Assembly (NCBI RefSeq): GCF_013342145.1
Contig: NZ_JABUQZ010000001.1
Location: 1,426,001 to 1,490,000, forward strand
Origin: Haloterrigena gelatinilytica
GTDB lineage: Archaea > Halobacteriota > Halobacteria > Halobacteriales > Natrialbaceae
Reading direction: 5' to 3'
DNA: 64,000 nucleotides
Position numbers and translations under genes: made by a program. Below the pieces are notes generated by a model. The model made no database searches and was not told the DNA's origin. It was given only the letters and a program-made list of their open reading frames with translations. This document shows positions 12,752 to 56,190 of this stretch, piece after piece. Every line of letters begins with the position of its first letter. Position 1 is the stretch's first letter.

Positions 12752-14550
12752 GCGCACCGAACCGCGCGACGCTGTGGGGCCGCGTGTTGGTCGACGAACT
12801 CGCCAAGGGCGGCCTCGAGGCGGTCTGCATCGCCCCCGGCAGCCGGTCGACGCCGCTGACGGTCGCCTTCGCCGCACACGAGGAGATCGACGTCTACTCC
12901 CACCTCGACGAGCGCTCGGCGGCCTACTTCGCGCTCGGCCGGGCGCGCCGGACCGGCGAGCCGACGGCGATCGTTTCTACCTCCGGGACGGCGACCGCGA
13001 ACTTTCACCCGGCCGTGATGGAGGCCGACCAGGCCCGCGTCCCGCTGCTCGTGCTCACGGCGGACCGCCCGCACGAACTCCGCGACAGCGGCGCGAATCA
13101 GACCGTCGATCAGGTCGAACTCTACGGCGACGCGGTCCGCTGGGACGCCGAACTCCCCGATCCCGAGGCGGACGAGCGCAAGGTGCGGAGCCTCCGAACG
13201 ACCGCCGCCCGGGCGCTGTCCGAGACCGGCGGCGTCGATCCCGGTCCCGTCCACCTGAACTGTCCGTTCCGCAAGCCCCTCGAGCCGATCGAAGTCCCCG
13301 ACGCCGTCCCCGACGCGTTCGCGGAGACGTCCGCCGGACGCGGACGCGACGGCGCGTTCGTCGACACCGAGTTGGGAACGCGATCGCTCGCGGACGCGCA
13401 GTACGAGAAACTCGTCCGCGCACTCGAGGACGCCGACCGGCCGCTGATCGTCGCGGGACCGGCGGATCCCGCCGATCTGTCCGCGCTCGATCCCGACCGC
13501 GTCGCCACCGTCGCCGAGCGCGTCGGCGCGCCGATCCTCGCGGATCCGCTCTCGAACCTGCGGTTCGGCCCGCACGTCGACCGGGAGTCCGTGACGGGGC
13601 CGGTGTACGGCGGTTACGACGCCTACATCGACCTGCTGCCGGCACCCGACGTCGTCGTGCGGTTCGGCGCGTCGCCGACCTCGAAACCCCTGCGGAACGC
13701 GCTGCGGGATTCGGACGCCCGTCAGTTCCTGATCGACCCCGCGGGCGACTGGCGCGAGGCGACGTTCACCGCGACGGATCTGCTGGCCGCGTCGCCGGGG
13801 CCCGTCTTCGAGGGGCTGTGCGAGCGCCTCGAGGCCGACGACGTGGCGCAGCCAGAATCCGAAAACGGGTGGCTGGCCGCCTTCGCCGACGCGGAGCGTC
13901 GCCACTGGGCGGTTCGCGACGCGGCCCTCGAGTCGGCGCCCCTCGAGTCCGAGCCGTTCGAAGGGGCCGTTCTCGCCGACGTCTTCGAGGCCGCGCCCGA
14001 TCCGGCGACGATTTTCGTGTCCAACAGCATGCCGATCCGGGACGCCGACCGGTTCGGCCGGCCCCGCGACGCCGACCTGACGGTGCTGGCGAACCGCGGC
14101 GCCAGCGGGATCGACGGGATCACGAGCGCGGCGCTCGGCGCCGGCAGCACGACCGACGAGCCGCTGGTGCTCGTCACCGGCGATCTGGCCTTCTACCACG
14201 ATTCCAACGGATTGCTCGCCGTCGACCGCTGTGGCGTCGACGCCACCATCGTCCTGCTGGACAACGACGGCGGCGGCATCTTCCACGAACTGCCGATCGA
14301 GGCGTTCGAGCCGCCCTTCACGGACCAGTTCAAGACGCCCCACGGCCTCGAGTTCGACGCGCTGGCCGACTTTTACGACCTCGCGTTCGAGCGCGTCGCC
14401 CCCGTCGACTTCGCGAGCGCGTATCGGCGGTCGCTCGAGTCCGAGGGGACGCAGGTGCTCGCCGTCGAATTCGACTCCGAGGCGAGCCACCGGCGGCGGG
14501 ACGCGCTCGCGGAGCGGATCCATGCGGAGCTTCGAGGGGAGGGCGAGTAG
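12748..14550 (+). CDS. menD: 2-succinyl-5-enolpyruvyl-6-hydroxy-3-cyclohexene-1-carboxylate synthase
   Basis: A 600-residue thiamine-diphosphate enzyme that adds the succinyl semialdehyde unit from 2-oxoglutarate to isochorismate. Seen: the N-terminal PYR domain (CIAPGSRSTPLTVAF, HLDERSAAYFALG with the catalytic-type Glu, STSGTATANFHPAVMEA, LTADRPHELRDSGANQT). The C-terminal PP domain carries a metal/ThDP motif around TGDLAFYHDSNGLLA and LLDNDGGGIFHELP (GDL...N pattern). Length is normal. Directly coupled to menF. Confidence 0.96.
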   Translation: MSAPNRATLWGRVLVDELAKGGLEAVCIAPGSRSTPLTVAFAAHEEIDVYSHLDERSAAYFALGRARRTGEPTAIVSTSGTATANFHPAVMEADQARVPLLVLTADRPHELRDSGANQTVDQVELYGDAVRWDAELPDPEADERKVRSLRTTAARALSETGGVDPGPVHLNCPFRKPLEPIEVPDAVPDAFAETSAGRGRDGAFVDTELGTRSLADAQYEKLVRALEDADRPLIVAGPADPADLSALDPDRVATVAERVGAPILADPLSNLRFGPHVDRESVTGPVYGGYDAYIDLLPAPDVVVRFGASPTSKPLRNALRDSDARQFLIDPAGDWREATFTATDLLAASPGPVFEGLCERLEADDVAQPESENGWLAAFADAERRHWAVRDAALESAPLESEPFEGAVLADVFEAAPDPATIFVSNSMPIRDADRFGRPRDADLTVLANRGASGIDGITSAALGAGSTTDEPLVLVTGDLAFYHDSNGLLAVDRCGVDATIVLLDNDGGGIFHELPIEAFEPPFTDQFKTPHGLEFDALADFYDLAFERVAPVDFASAYRRSLESEGTQVLAVEFDSEASHRRRDALAERIHAELRGEGE

Positions 14551-15894: not shown

Positions 15895-16342
15895 CGCCTT
15901 CGGTGTCGAACGGCCGGCTGAAAAATCAATCGGCTTAGGTGATCGGCGTCCGAGTCCGGATCGGAAACTGAAAGCGACGTCTCGGTGCGTCGTTTCTCAG
16001 ATCGATATATTGTATAGTGCTATATCAAATGGAGCGTTTGATCGAGACGGAGTATCACCTCTCTGGCGACGATATCGAACGCCTGGGCGTCTGAAAGCGT
16101 CGAACTTGGTTGACGGACGGCGAACCGTGCCGGTCTCGGATCCGGCACTCGATCGAAACGCGACTCGAGATCGGTGACCCGATCGCCTCGATCGCCGCCA
16201 GCGCTCTTCGAATCGGTATACGGCAATCAGACGTGACCGCTATACACTCGTCAGGACCAGTATGTTCCGAACAAGAGGTCATGAAATTCAATAATAGGTG
16301 TATTATAAGAAACTATGGCTGACACATCGACAGTGACGGGTG
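15895..16342. other. intergenic region, 448 bp, locally A/T-rich
   Basis: Next to the J-domain gene start, the DNA is A/T-rich at 16005-16030 (ATATATTGTATAGTGCTATAT), which resembles a promoter. A 21-codon open frame follows (16029-16094, MERLIETEYHLSGDDIERLGV), possibly a relic of a longer gene; I do not call it a gene. The first copy of a 54-bp direct repeat (16280-16333) ends the region and contains the presumed promoter of the beta-helix gene. Confidence 0.5.
16280..16333 (+). repeat. 54-bp direct repeat, copy 1 (promoter-proximal)
   Basis: Identical by eye over 54 bases to 16446-16499. It begins CATGAAATTCAATAAT and ends ACATCGACAG. It contains a TATA-like TATTATAAG about 30 bp ahead of the Tat-signal start codon at 16343, so this copy probably carries the native promoter of the broken beta-helix gene. 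Confidence 0.85.
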
Positions 16343-17511
16343 ATGTCCAACGACACCAACGCCACCAGCGGCCAGCGGTTCGGACAGTCGACGCGACGGA
16401 CGTTCCTCGGCGGCCTCGGAGCGACCGCCGGAATCGGCGCGTTGACATGAAATTCAATAATAGGTGTATTATAAGAAACTATGGCTGACACATCGACAGA
16501 CATATCGACGAACTCGACTCGAGCGGCGGCACCGTCGTCGCGGGCGGCGGCGACTTCCGCTTTGGCGGTCCGGCCACGATCGGTGACGACACCGCGCTGG
16601 TCGGCCAGCAGGGAACGCGGCTCGTCGTCGCCGGCGGAGAAGACGGCGCGACGAGCGACGAACCGTCGGGCCACGACCTGATCCGCGCCCGCGGCGACGA
16701 CGTGACGATCGCCAATATCGAGTTCGACGCGAACGGAACGCAACTCGACAACCACGCGATTCAGGCCGACGGCTGCGACGGTCTGCTGGTGGCGAACAAC
16801 CGCACCGTCGACGGCTTCCAGATGGCGATCTCGTTTTCGCGGTGTACGAACGCACAGCTCGTCGGCAACGAGGTGCTCGACCCCAACTGGTACGGGATCA
16901 CCGCCCGGGCCGCTGACGACGAGCTGGACCTGCGTCGCTCCGAGAACGTCGTCGTCGCGCGCAACTACGTCGCCGGCGTGACCTACAACAACATCGCGAC
17001 CTACAACGTCAGCAACTTCACCGTCTACGGCAACGTCGTCGAGGACGGCGGCCACAGCCTCATCGCCTGCTCGCCCGCCCAGCAGGGCGCGATCGTCGGG
17101 AACGTCTGCCGGAATCTCGAGGAGTATGCCCCCGACCCCGGCGGCGAGGCGGGCATCGAGATCGAGTACAAGGAGACCCACGTCCGCGAAGAGATCGCCG
17201 ACACCCCGCTGGCGCGCTCTTTCGATATCACCATTTCGGGCAATCAGGTCGATAACTGTCCGGTCGGGATCCTCGCTCGGACGGTCCCCGCCGACAGCGA
17301 CAACGAGGCCGCCCGCGAGACGGAGCGTCCCTACAGCTTCACCGTGACCGGGAACGCGATCAGCGACGCCGCGGACGCCGGCATCCGGATCCGCTCCGGC
17401 GAGGCGGGCGTCGTCGCGACGAATACCGTTCGAAACAGTCCCGCGCCGCTCGAGATCGACGAGACCTACGCCGTCGATATTCAGCGGGGACTGAACGCGA
17501 CTCGAGAGTGA
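16343..17511 (+). pseudogene. Tat-exported right-handed beta-helix protein, disrupted
   Basis: The N-terminal part (ATG 16343) encodes a good Tat signal, with STRRTFLGGLGATAGIGALT, and then stops at 16448-16450 inside the second copy of a 54-bp repeat. The body of the protein resumes in a different frame after the repeat (from about 16489: HIDELDSSGGTVVAGGGDF...). It runs to 17511, with repeating strand-turn units such as VTIANIEFDANG, LLVANNRTVDGF, CTNAQLVGNEVL, NVVVARNYVAGV and FTVYGNVVEDGG, typical of parallel beta-helix/pectate-lyase-like folds. In between, the frame is shifted and a stop (16486-16488) is present, and the segment joining signal and helix domain appears lost. An internal GTG at 16702 could start a signal-less fragment. 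Either a recent rearrangement or an assembly error. Confidence 0.75.
16446..16499 (+). repeat. 54-bp direct repeat, copy 2 (intragenic)
   Basis: The second exact copy of the 54-bp sequence, starting 166 bp after the first. It sits inside the reading frame of the beta-helix gene directly after its Tat signal, bringing an in-frame stop and a frame change. The DNA flanking the two copies is not duplicated, so it is not a simple tandem duplication. Confidence 0.85.
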
Positions 17512-17648
17512 CCTGATTCGGATCGCCCGAACGAAACAACGGCTCGAACGCAGCGGACCGGCTGCTCGGACGGCGCATCGAGACCGCGCTCGAGGGACTC
17601 GAGCGCGACGCGAACCTATTTCACGGGCCGCGGACCAACGTCGAGCCA

Positions 17649-24249: not shown

Positions 24250-25823
24250 CGCCCGGGCCGGTCGAGTGGCCGACGAGGGACCTCCTCGCCCACCGCGCGT
24301 CGACGACGCCTGACGCGACGGCCGTGATCGACGCCGACAACGACGAGTCGTGGACGTTCGGCGAGTTCGATCGGCGAGTCGACGCCGTCGCCGCCCGCCT
24401 CGAGTCGCTCCTCGCCGACTCCGACGGTCGACTCGACGACCCCGCCCGACTCGGCGTGTTGATGGAGACGCGCGTCGAGTTCGCCGAACTCTACTTCGCC
24501 GCGATGCGCCGGGGCGTCACGGTCGTCCCGCTGAACGTCCGCGAGACGGCCGCCGAACTCGAGTCGAAGGTTCGACGAACCGATCTCGACGCGCTCGTCT
24601 GCGAGGCCGAGACGGCGGACCTCGCCGCGGAAATCGCGGACTGTCCGATCGCCTCGGTCGACGAGTCCGAAGGCGGGGGCGTGGATTCGCTCCGCTCGAA
24701 TGGCGGGACGACCCCGGATCTGGAGCCGGTCGTTCTCGAGCGCGACCGGACTCACCTGCTCATGTTCACTTCGGGGACCTCGGGCGATCCGAAGATCGTT
24801 CGGCTGACTCTCGGAAACCTCGTCTCGAGCGCGAACGCGTCGGCCTTCCGGCTGGGCGTCACGCCCGACGACCGGTGGCTCTGCTGTCTCCCGATGTACC
24901 ACATGGGCGGGCTGGCCCCGGTCGTCCGCTCGACGCTCTACGGGACGCCCGTCGTGATCCAGCGGTCGTTCGATCCCGAGGCGACCGCGCGGGTCGTCGA
25001 CGAGTACGATATCACGGGCGTCTCGCTCGTCCCGACGATGTGCAAGCGGCTGCTCGACGCCGGCTGGTCGCCGCCGGACTCGCTGCGGTTCGTCCTGCTG
25101 GGCGGCGCGCCCGCCTCGAGCGAGTTGCTCGAGCGCTGTCGCGAGGCCGGCGTGCCGGTCCACCCGACCTACGGGATGACCGAGACGGCCTCCCAGATCG
25201 CGACGGCGACGCCGGAGGAGGTGGCGACCCGTGAGGGAACGGTCGGCCGGCCGCTCGTCTGTACGGACGTGACGGTCGTCGACGAGAGCGGCGAGCCGTG
25301 TCCGGCGGGGGAGTCCGGCGAACTCGTCGTCGCCGGGCCGACGGTGACGCCGGGCTATCTCTCCGACGCTGAGACCGAGGCGGCCTTCGGCGAGCACGGC
25401 CTGCACACCGGCGATATCGGCTACCGCGACGAGGGCGGCCGTCTGTGGATCCTCAACCGGCGGAGCGACCGGATCGTCACCGGCGGCGAGAACGTCGATC
25501 CCGGCGAAGTGATCGCGGCGCTGCGCTCCCACCCGGCGGTCGAGGAGGCGGCGGTCGTCGGCCTCGAGGACCCGGAGTGGGGCGAACGCGTGGCCGCGCT
25601 GGTCGTCCCCGCTAACGGCGCCGCGACCGATGCCAGCGGGACCGACGCGATCGATATCGAGTCGCTGCTCACACACTGCGACGATCGGCTCGCGGGATTC
25701 AAGCGGCCGAAGACGATCGGGATCGCCGACGCCCTCCCCCGGACCGCCTCGGGGACCGTCGATCGGACGGCCGTCCGCGAACGGCTGCTCGAGGGCGGGA
25801 TCGACGCGACCGAATCGGCGTGA
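24246..25823 (+). CDS. menE: o-succinylbenzoate-CoA ligase
   Basis: A 525-residue AMP-forming acyl-CoA synthetase that activates o-succinylbenzoate for MenB. It has the P-loop LMFTSGTSGDPKIV, the A5 motif YGMTETAS, the hinge region LHTGDIGYRDEGG, NRRSDRIVTGGENV, and a C-terminal catalytic Lys region ending GTVDR. The GTG at 24246 gives a four-base overlap with menC. Specificity is inferred from context. Confidence 0.92.
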   Translation: MTPGPVEWPTRDLLAHRASTTPDATAVIDADNDESWTFGEFDRRVDAVAARLESLLADSDGRLDDPARLGVLMETRVEFAELYFAAMRRGVTVVPLNVRETAAELESKVRRTDLDALVCEAETADLAAEIADCPIASVDESEGGGVDSLRSNGGTTPDLEPVVLERDRTHLLMFTSGTSGDPKIVRLTLGNLVSSANASAFRLGVTPDDRWLCCLPMYHMGGLAPVVRSTLYGTPVVIQRSFDPEATARVVDEYDITGVSLVPTMCKRLLDAGWSPPDSLRFVLLGGAPASSELLERCREAGVPVHPTYGMTETASQIATATPEEVATREGTVGRPLVCTDVTVVDESGEPCPAGESGELVVAGPTVTPGYLSDAETEAAFGEHGLHTGDIGYRDEGGRLWILNRRSDRIVTGGENVDPGEVIAALRSHPAVEEAAVVGLEDPEWGERVAALVVPANGAATDASGTDAIDIESLLTHCDDRLAGFKRPKTIGIADALPRTASGTVDRTAVRERLLEGGIDATESA

Positions 25824-25908
25824 CTCCGAAATCGTCTCGAGACGGCAGGAACCCCTCGAGACTGCCGCCGGAACCGGAGTTAAGGCGCTTCGCCCCCTCT
25901 CTCGAGTC

Positions 25909-37580: not shown

Positions 37581-37825
37581 GCTCGGACGGCGTCCGCGTC
37601 ATCAGCATGGGCATGCTGACCGAAGACGAGGACGACCCCGCAATCTTGCGCGGTCCGATGGTCAACAAGTTCATGCTGAAGTTCCTCGAGGGCGTCGAGT
37701 GGGGTCGCCTCGACTACCTCGTCGTCGACCTGCCGCCGGGGACGGGCGACGCGACGCTGAACCTCCTGCAGTCGATGCCCGTCACCGGTGCGGTCGTCGT
37801 CACGACGCCCCAGGAGATGTCCTTA
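37581..37825 (+). repeat. 245-bp tandem repeat, unit 1, inside mrp
   Basis: Begins GCTCGGACGGCGTCCGCG and ends GGAGATGTCCTTA. Identical by eye to the following unit. The 245-bp length is not a multiple of three. The two units directly abut. Confidence 0.92.
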
Positions 37826-38070
37826 GCTCGGACGGCGTCCGCGTCATCAGCATGGGCATGCTGACCGAAGACGAGGACGACCCCGCAATCTTGCGCGGTC
37901 CGATGGTCAACAAGTTCATGCTGAAGTTCCTCGAGGGCGTCGAGTGGGGTCGCCTCGACTACCTCGTCGTCGACCTGCCGCCGGGGACGGGCGACGCGAC
38001 GCTGAACCTCCTGCAGTCGATGCCCGTCACCGGTGCGGTCGTCGTCACGACGCCCCAGGAGATGTCCTTA
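37826..38070 (+). repeat. 245-bp tandem repeat, unit 2, inside mrp
   Basis: The second copy, with no mismatch seen. The match extends one base past the unit at the right end (G at 38071). Lack of divergence implies the duplication is very young or artificial. Confidence 0.92.
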
Positions 38071-54816: not shown

Positions 54817-56190
54817 TTACAGGTTCGCGCTGACCCACTCCGAGAACGGACCGGTGAGGAAGTCGACGTAGTCGACGATCCCCAGGTACAGGGAGACGGC
54901 GAGGACGGCGATGATCGGGACGCGAACCGCCCAGATCCACGCCTGTCCGAGCGATCCGAGATCGCCGATTCCCTTCGAGAGTTCCTCGACGGCGAATTGC
55001 GGGGCGACCCAGCCGACGAGCAGCATCAATACGAGCGCGCCAAACACCAGCAGAATGCCGTCGGCGAACAGGTCCAGCAGGTCGAGGAAGATCAGGTCGT
55101 ACGTGACCGGAATACCGAGCAGGTAGATGACGCCGCCCATCCCGAGGGCCGCCTTCCACCGTTCGACACCCTTCTCGTCGATGACGTACGCCGTCACGAC
55201 CTCGAGCAGCGAAATCGCGCTCGAGAGCGCCGCGATGGCGACGGTGCCGAAGAAGAGGAGGCCGAGCAGTCGCCCGCCGGAGAGGTCGGCGAACGCTTGA
55301 GTCATCGAGACGAAGATCGCACCGGGACCGCCCTCGCCCGGATCGGTGATGCCGGCCGCGAAGAAGATGGGGAAGACGACTAGACCGGTCAGGAACGCGA
55401 TTCCGGTGTCGAACCCGATGATCGTCGCGGCGTCTTTAGTCAGGTTCCGATCTTCGCCGAGGTAGGACGCGTAGGTGATCATCACACCCATCCCGAGCGA
55501 GAGGGTGAAGAACGCCTGTCCGGCCGCCGCCGGCAGGAGGTTCGTCCAGTTCGACGTGATGGTGCTGAAGTCCGGAGAGAGGTAGTACTCGTAGCCGGCA
55601 CCGGACCCGGAGAGGGTGAACGCCCAGACGGCCAGCCCGGCGAGCAGGACGACGATCGCCGGCACCATCGCCTTCGTCGCGACCTCGATGCCGCGTCGGA
55701 TCCCGAGCGCGACGACGCCGATCGTCACGGCCATGAAGACCGTGTGCAGAACGAACGCGTCCATTCCCGTGGATACTTCGCCGAACATCGCGCCCGCTTC
55801 GCCGCCGTGTGTGGCGAGGCGGTCCGCGTAGCTTCCGCGGAAGCCCTCGAAAAAGTAGCGGATGAACCAGCCGGCGACGACGCTGTAGTACGACAGGATC
55901 ACGAAGCCGGTGACGATGAACACGCCGCCGACGTACTTCCAGGCGTTACCGCCGAGTTCGAGCAGCGCTCCGACCGGGTTCCGTTCGGTTCGGCGCCCGA
56001 CGACGAACTCGACCAGAATCGCCGGGAAGCCGATGAACGCGACGAACAGCAGATAGACGACGAGAAACGCCGCCCCGCCCCCGTCTGCCGTAATGAACGG
56101 GAACCGCCAGATATTCCCTAGCCCGACTGCGCTGCCGACGGCAGCCAGGATGAAGCCTGTTCTCGTTGCCCATGTTTCGCGTTGTGCCAT
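54817..56190 (-). CDS. sodium-dependent transporter, SNF/NSS family
   Basis: A 457-residue, about 12-helix transporter of the neurotransmitter:sodium symporter family. TM1 carries AAVGSAVGLGNIWRFPFITADGGGAAFLVVYL with the unwound helix motif of the Na+ and substrate sites. Charged loops EFVVGRRTERNPVGALL and LGEDRNLTKDAATIIGFD are typical. It probably imports an amino acid. It is divergent from the liv operon, with a shared 298-bp promoter region. Confidence 0.93.
   Translation of the reverse strand: MAQRETWATRTGFILAAVGSAVGLGNIWRFPFITADGGGAAFLVVYLLFVAFIGFPAILVEFVVGRRTERNPVGALLELGGNAWKYVGGVFIVTGFVILSYYSVVAGWFIRYFFEGFRGSYADRLATHGGEAGAMFGEVSTGMDAFVLHTVFMAVTIGVVALGIRRGIEVATKAMVPAIVVLLAGLAVWAFTLSGSGAGYEYYLSPDFSTITSNWTNLLPAAAGQAFFTLSLGMGVMITYASYLGEDRNLTKDAATIIGFDTGIAFLTGLVVFPIFFAAGITDPGEGGPGAIFVSMTQAFADLSGGRLLGLLFFGTVAIAALSSAISLLEVVTAYVIDEKGVERWKAALGMGGVIYLLGIPVTYDLIFLDLLDLFADGILLVFGALVLMLLVGWVAPQFAVEELSKGIGDLGSLGQAWIWAVRVPIIAVLAVSLYLGIVDYVDFLTGPFSEWVSANL

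Follow-up and report, generated by a model that had tools for sequence, protein, structure and literature searches.

A gene for a Tat-exported right-handed beta-helix protein in Haloterrigena gelatinilytica lacks 227-242 bp that its orthologs carry between the signal and the helix domain, and holds in their place an exact 54-base copy of the region just upstream of the gene, followed by five further bases. The locus lies in a stretch of 64,000 nucleotides, here called the window, from contig NZ_JABUQZ010000001.1. We favour, with a probability of roughly one half, a mutational reading: a recent deletion with a templated insertion at the break, or tandem duplication of 166 bp and then deletion of 354 bp. 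Its elements, in window coordinates, are as follows.

16280..16333, + strand: copy 1 (native) of the 54-base block, in the upstream region of the gene; the block is at the same place in the window and in the congeners G001-G004
16343..16450, + strand: 5' remnant of the gene, a 35-codon frame that includes a twin-arginine signal (STRRTFLGG) and ends in a TGA made by the junction (open reading frame; Pfam TAT_signal)
16446..16499, + strand: copy 2 (inserted), identical to copy 1 and without counterpart at this place in G001-G004
16500..16504, + strand: filler of five bases (ACATA) that separates copy 2 from the continuation of the gene (alignment, string search)
16505..17511, + strand: remaining gene, right-handed beta-helix (PF13229, E 1.5e-14)

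The interrupted gene

The ancestral form of the gene is provided by four of five congeners (G001-G004), in which it is one open frame of 447-452 codons, with a single copy of the 54-mer, and encodes a Tat-exported beta-helix protein; the fifth congener (G005) gave no match to the locus. The G001 protein combines a twin-arginine signal motif with a right-handed beta-helix (PF13229, E 1.7e-14). Relatives at 50-63% identity (70% for one partial match) were found in Haloarcula, Haloquadratum, Halorubrum and an uncultured archaeon.

Within the window, the signal reading frame ends after codon 35 at a TGA (16448-16450). The signal remnant scores below the curated cut-off of the TAT_signal family (PF10518, E 0.0022, 18.3 bits against 22.7) and still has the twin-arginine motif and a hydrophobic stretch. 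The helix remnant matches Beta_helix as well as the G001 ortholog does (54.4 and 54.2 bits, cut-off 25.9). It lies in a different frame from the signal, and this frame has its own TGA at 16486-16488, inside copy 2, so that the stop and frame change that a preliminary description of this DNA attributed to the copy are both confirmed. The helix frame is open from 16489 and holds no ATG, GTG or TTG start before the GTG at 16702. As read from the sequence, the exported protein cannot be made, and the gene is dead as a source of secreted protein, because the signal peptide is severed 35 codons in, and the helix part lacks both a signal and, for about 200 bases, a usual start. The relocated promoter in copy 2 could still drive a headless transcript.

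The copied block and the missing segment

The two 54-base copies are identical at all 54 positions, with starts 166 bp apart and a gap of 112 bp between them, and the second begins just past codon 35, exactly the recurrence after the signal-coding part that had been described. The 40-base flanks agree at only 9 positions on the left and 7 on the right; therefore the flanks are not duplicated, as was also noted at the outset. Ten first-order Markov sequences of 64 kb each had longest exact repeats of 16-21 bases, which excludes a chance origin for a repeat of 54 bases. Even with up to three mismatches allowed, the 54-mer occurs in just these two places in the genome of 4,552,005 bases, and its exact sequence is absent from the genome_contigs collection, which may omit genomes very near that of the window.

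The block is AT-rich (GC 0.33, against 0.67 for the window) and ends abruptly. Within it, TATTATAAG (16301-16309) is invariant across the five aligned genomes, namely the window and G001-G004. We take this element to be a TATA box, on the basis of haloarchaeal promoter geometry, and transcription would then start near 16332. Copy 1 ends approximately at this presumed start and shortly before the Tat-signal ATG (16343); the copied block would therefore be a core promoter.

Comparison with intact orthologs, which had been proposed as a way to define what is missing, bears out the loss of a piece between signal and helix domain: the window lacks 242, 242, 242 and 227 bp that are present in G001, G002, G003 and G004, respectively. 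In the orthologs these bases sit between GCGTTGAC and TCGACGAACT, where the window has copy 2 and ACATA. The missing piece is GC-rich (0.71-0.75) and in three of the four orthologs contains a 12-base palindrome. When it was sought elsewhere in the genome, only its two flanks matched well, and the best other match (72% over about 106 bp) is too weak for the piece to have moved to another location. The left join has one base of homology (C). At the right join no template was found for the five filler bases, the longest string containing ACATA elsewhere in the window being a 7-mer, and a 20-mer spanning this join occurs once in the genome. ACATA resembles the ACACA that precedes TCGAC in the copy; another brief round of copying might account for it, but the string is too short to be counted. 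Downstream, positions 16505-17509 align without gaps to G001. Among the six genomes of the genus that were searched (one genome per species), no other has this junction.

Five small indels are private to the window, and none lies near the junction. Four of them fall within 3.1 kb (55783, 56094, 56339 and 58898), in and after a reading frame that reads like a transporter (54817-56190) and near the end of a later one. A comparison of coding deletions over about 101 kb of alignment gave 20 breaks, seven of which were inspected. At one of them (L058, about 18883), in a gene resembling a chemotaxis transducer, 2 codons stand in place of 76 in G002 and the frame is kept; since G002 alone was compared, this may be a loss here or a gain there. 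A further break (L152, 13189-13199), with 11 bases at the join, was judged intergenic. Relative to the window, G001 and G002 carry about 1.1-1.2 kb more at 17509-17598, and G001, G002 and G004 about 1.8 kb more at 25821-25860; the remaining congeners do not, and these differences would be lineage insertions or losses.

Identical copies in a gene that is about 5% different from its nearest relative argue that the event is young. With the rate per lineage set at half of the dS of 0.136 between G001 and the window, the probability of no difference in 54 bp is 0.0006 if the event dates back to the split from G001, and 0.05 if it is 0.4 times as old. Private changes in the helix remnant (7 nonsynonymous and 9 synonymous, against 21 and 48 summed over the four orthologs) gave no significant signal of relaxed selection (p 0.38, or 0.55 without the junction codon), a result that would fit either a very young event or none at all. 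The event is thus young, or it is not real.

End-to-end duplications in the assembly

A survey for exact repeats (28 bases or longer, no more than 2 kb apart) covered 864 kb of this genome, 480 kb each of G002, G003 and G004, and 60 kb of G001; selection of the tandem and non-tandem cases was by eye. In this genome it gave seven end-to-end duplications of 94-353 bp, one at 37581 in the window and six at other loci (L066, L069, L149, L152, L153 and L155). The controls gave one in G002-G004 (64 bp, G003 L130) and one in G001 (110 bp, L127). The excess has p 0.006 against G002-G004 (1 in 1440 kb) and 0.015 with G001 added (2 in 1500 kb). An 84-bp repeat in G002 (L166), made of shorter units, was left out of the main count; including it gives p 0.017. 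Both window cases were known beforehand, and omission of the window leaves 6 in 800 kb and p 0.010, while both changes together with G001 give 0.052. Repeats excluded as paralogous or coding were L059, L141, L146 and L054 13125, which have similar flanks, and L054 17446, which was aligned; L054 881-1642, L148, G003 L106 and repeats in G002 L166 and L176 were assigned to this class without alignment. L064, L139 1991 and G004 L088 were set aside for half-alike flanks.

All of the seven except L149 were compared copy by copy with relatives, and four have copies that differ from one another. The duplications are these.

L069:11342-11850 (G000:C1 about 4101342): copies differ, errors on the junction side
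L066:16722-17110: copies differ, errors on the junction side
L153:14012-14720: copies differ, errors on the junction side
L155:4340-4900: copies differ, errors on the junction side
L149:5865-6066: further end-to-end duplication, 94 bp
L152:9119-9417: further end-to-end duplication, 149 bp, copies identical
37581..38070 of the window, + strand: tandem duplication of 245 bp, copies exact, with one base shared at the join (repeat search, congener alignment)

In the four differing cases, 17 of 18 difference events fall in the junction-facing half of the deviating copy (p 0.00014), the exception being at position 158 of 352 in L153. Eleven events are single-base indels, and the remainder are substitutions, mixed changes and one 4-base gap. 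Neighbouring columns were scored as one event; an ambiguous substitution in L069 and the outermost columns of the four alignments (2, 3, 5 and 5) are not in the count. To judge from the aligned copies, this polarity looks like the signature of unmerged, error-prone contig ends rather than a genuine duplication that has decayed. A gene that we take for dnaG from its G001 protein contains one of these duplications, and another duplication is in the 5' part of what is presumably a gene for a rhodanese-metallohydrolase fusion, as its G001 ortholog reads.

The duplication at 37581-38070 frameshifts the gene for an Mrp/NBP35-type iron-sulfur carrier ATPase (PF10609, E 3e-61), and all five congeners have the 245-bp unit once at this place. 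It is probably an unmerged assembly join; the two copies are identical, and hence an origin shared with the error-bearing duplications is only probable.

Abrupt non-tandem local copies, again judged by eye, are no more frequent here than in the controls: one in 864 kb, or two with the case in L139 described below, against two in 1440 kb of G002-G004 (p 1.0 or 0.63, respectively). The two control copies (47 bp in G004 L136, 42 bp in G003 L102) lie at gene 3' ends; they differ in kind from the 54-base event and are not true twins of it. The L139 case (13484-13610) consists of two 30-base copies, 97 bp apart, that read like a tRNA 3' end (GGTTCGAATCCCTGACGGAGCA), and may be the scar of an integrated element. 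A repeat at L102:5510-5590 has many similar places: a query that includes it gave 47-62 matches per genome in G000, G001, G002 and G004, most of those listed falling in this stretch, which seems to belong to an intergenic repeat family present in high copy number in the genus.

Mutation or assembly error

On the mutational reading, a lineage-recent mutation would have removed 227-242 bp of the beta-helix gene, and the gap would have received five bases and a 54-base copy of the promoter region that lies 112 bp upstream in the same gene. A broken or stalled 3' end at GCGTTGAC would most likely have re-primed on the AT-rich upstream promoter through one shared base, copied 54 bases, left this template, and joined the far side at TCGACGAAC (TCGAC) after five untemplated bases. 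The loss, copy, filler and frame are seen as differences from the relatives, while the order, strand and enzymes of the process are what we infer. A 166-bp tandem duplication followed by a 354-bp deletion yields exactly the same sequence and is indistinguishable from templated filling. The single-copy open genes of four of five congeners, the lack of a close match to the lost piece elsewhere in the genome, the gap-free helix alignment to G001 and the freedom of the junction from private small indels would all argue for mutation. Counting against it are the weak junction homology, the apparently false end-to-end joins elsewhere in the assembly, and the GC-rich, palindromic character of the lost piece, which a sequencing dropout might also give. 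The preliminary description had suggested a deletion mended with DNA copied from close by; comparison with four orthologs shows the deletion and how large it is, and copying still competes with assembly error as its cause.

Assembly error is a serious possibility, to which we give somewhat less than even odds. A contig ending at GCGTTGAC could have been placed, unmerged, directly before one that starts at CATGAAATTC and whose beginning was either chimeric or derived from a deletion allele. Up to 20 chromosome copies are described in Haloferax volcanii (PMC2700283), and since haloarchaeal cells may hold many chromosome copies, two alleles of one culture could end up side by side as a false duplication. 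In vertebrate assemblies, false duplications have been described that stem from under-collapsed sequence or from two haplotypes (PMC9516828). The seven end-to-end duplications in this assembly, and the junction-facing errors in four of the six compared, favour such a cause. The 166-bp spacing of the 54-base copies lies inside the size range of these duplications. A tandem duplication of 166 bp together with loss of 354 bp amounts to this arrangement, and its source could be two alleles, or a faulty contig, placed end to end. The seven duplications are adjacent, however, whereas the 54-base copies are separated by 112 bp and would be end to end only if the 354 bp after copy 2 had been lost separately; an assembly error thus requires a faulty contig end in addition to a missed merge. 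Nor does the locus have junction-side errors, its copies being identical and private small indels being absent nearby, although two of the six compared duplications are also without copy differences, and the tandem excess itself is weaker under other choices of what to count (p 0.010 to 0.052). With copies neither end to end nor bearing such errors, the locus is therefore not proved false. The assembly join originally envisaged ran through a repeat, and this does not fit: an ancestral repeat is ruled out by the single 54-mer of G001-G004, where the second copy is absent. Other assembly errors, involving unmerged contig ends or two alleles, are a live rival because the same assembly has several such joins elsewhere.

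A gene that stays functional after rearrangement is very unlikely. The copied promoter would drive a shortened cytoplasmic beta-helix protein of 269 aa from the GTG at 16702, and the helix frame is indeed open to its normal end and still close to the orthologs; but young age also accounts for an intact frame, the start is about 200 bases past the expected transcript start, and the product would have neither a signal nor the first part of the helix. Less credible still is insertion of the 54-mer by its own machinery as a small mobile or regulatory element, a reading to which the AT-rich composition and abrupt ends might point. The block has two copies in the genome and no exact match in genome_contigs, a collection that may lack very near genomes, which speaks against this reading; furthermore, in the five aligned genomes the native block is what precedes this gene, neither terminal repeats nor a target duplication were seen at its ends, and the insertion point lost 227-242 bp.

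The junction is like those of polymerase theta-mediated end joining and microhomology-mediated break-induced replication in that a deletion is accompanied by nearby copied sequence with little homology at the joins. It differs from known templated-insertion deletions in that the host is an archaeon, not known to have a polymerase theta, the 54 bases were apparently copied from 112 bp away, and it is a single case, seen in an assembly. The 54-base insert is longer than typical templated inserts. Haloferax volcanii is described as using microhomology-mediated end joining (PMC7776575), and patchwork templated insertions and tandem duplications rise in worms without HELQ, a HEL308-family helicase (PMC8654963). 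We consider it improbable that fresh tandem duplications and templated deletion junctions have arisen in a burst in the present strain, through an end-joining habit like that of animals lacking HELQ/Hel308, with this locus as one scar among them. Among the open-access papers listed, no title or abstract opening describes a deletion junction with a templated insertion in an archaeon. The locus resembles assembly false duplications (homotype or heterotype) in its local identical repeat; other local repeats of the assembly carry junction-side errors, whereas here the edges are free of them, the copies are not end to end, and 227-242 bp are lost.

The 54-base finding is ordinary in kind, and the warning about the assembly may matter more. 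If the junction is false, it would be one more broken gene in a public assembly whose joins also interrupt the sequences of the iron-sulfur carrier gene and the gene taken for dnaG, and would mislead counts of pseudogenes and gene losses. Haloarchaeal Tat-exported right-handed beta-helix proteins (PF13229) have orthologs within the genus, and the copy in this genome is interrupted and cannot yield an exported protein. If the junction is real, it would be a clear archaeal example of neighbouring DNA copied into the gap of a deletion, for which intact relatives fix the ancestral state.
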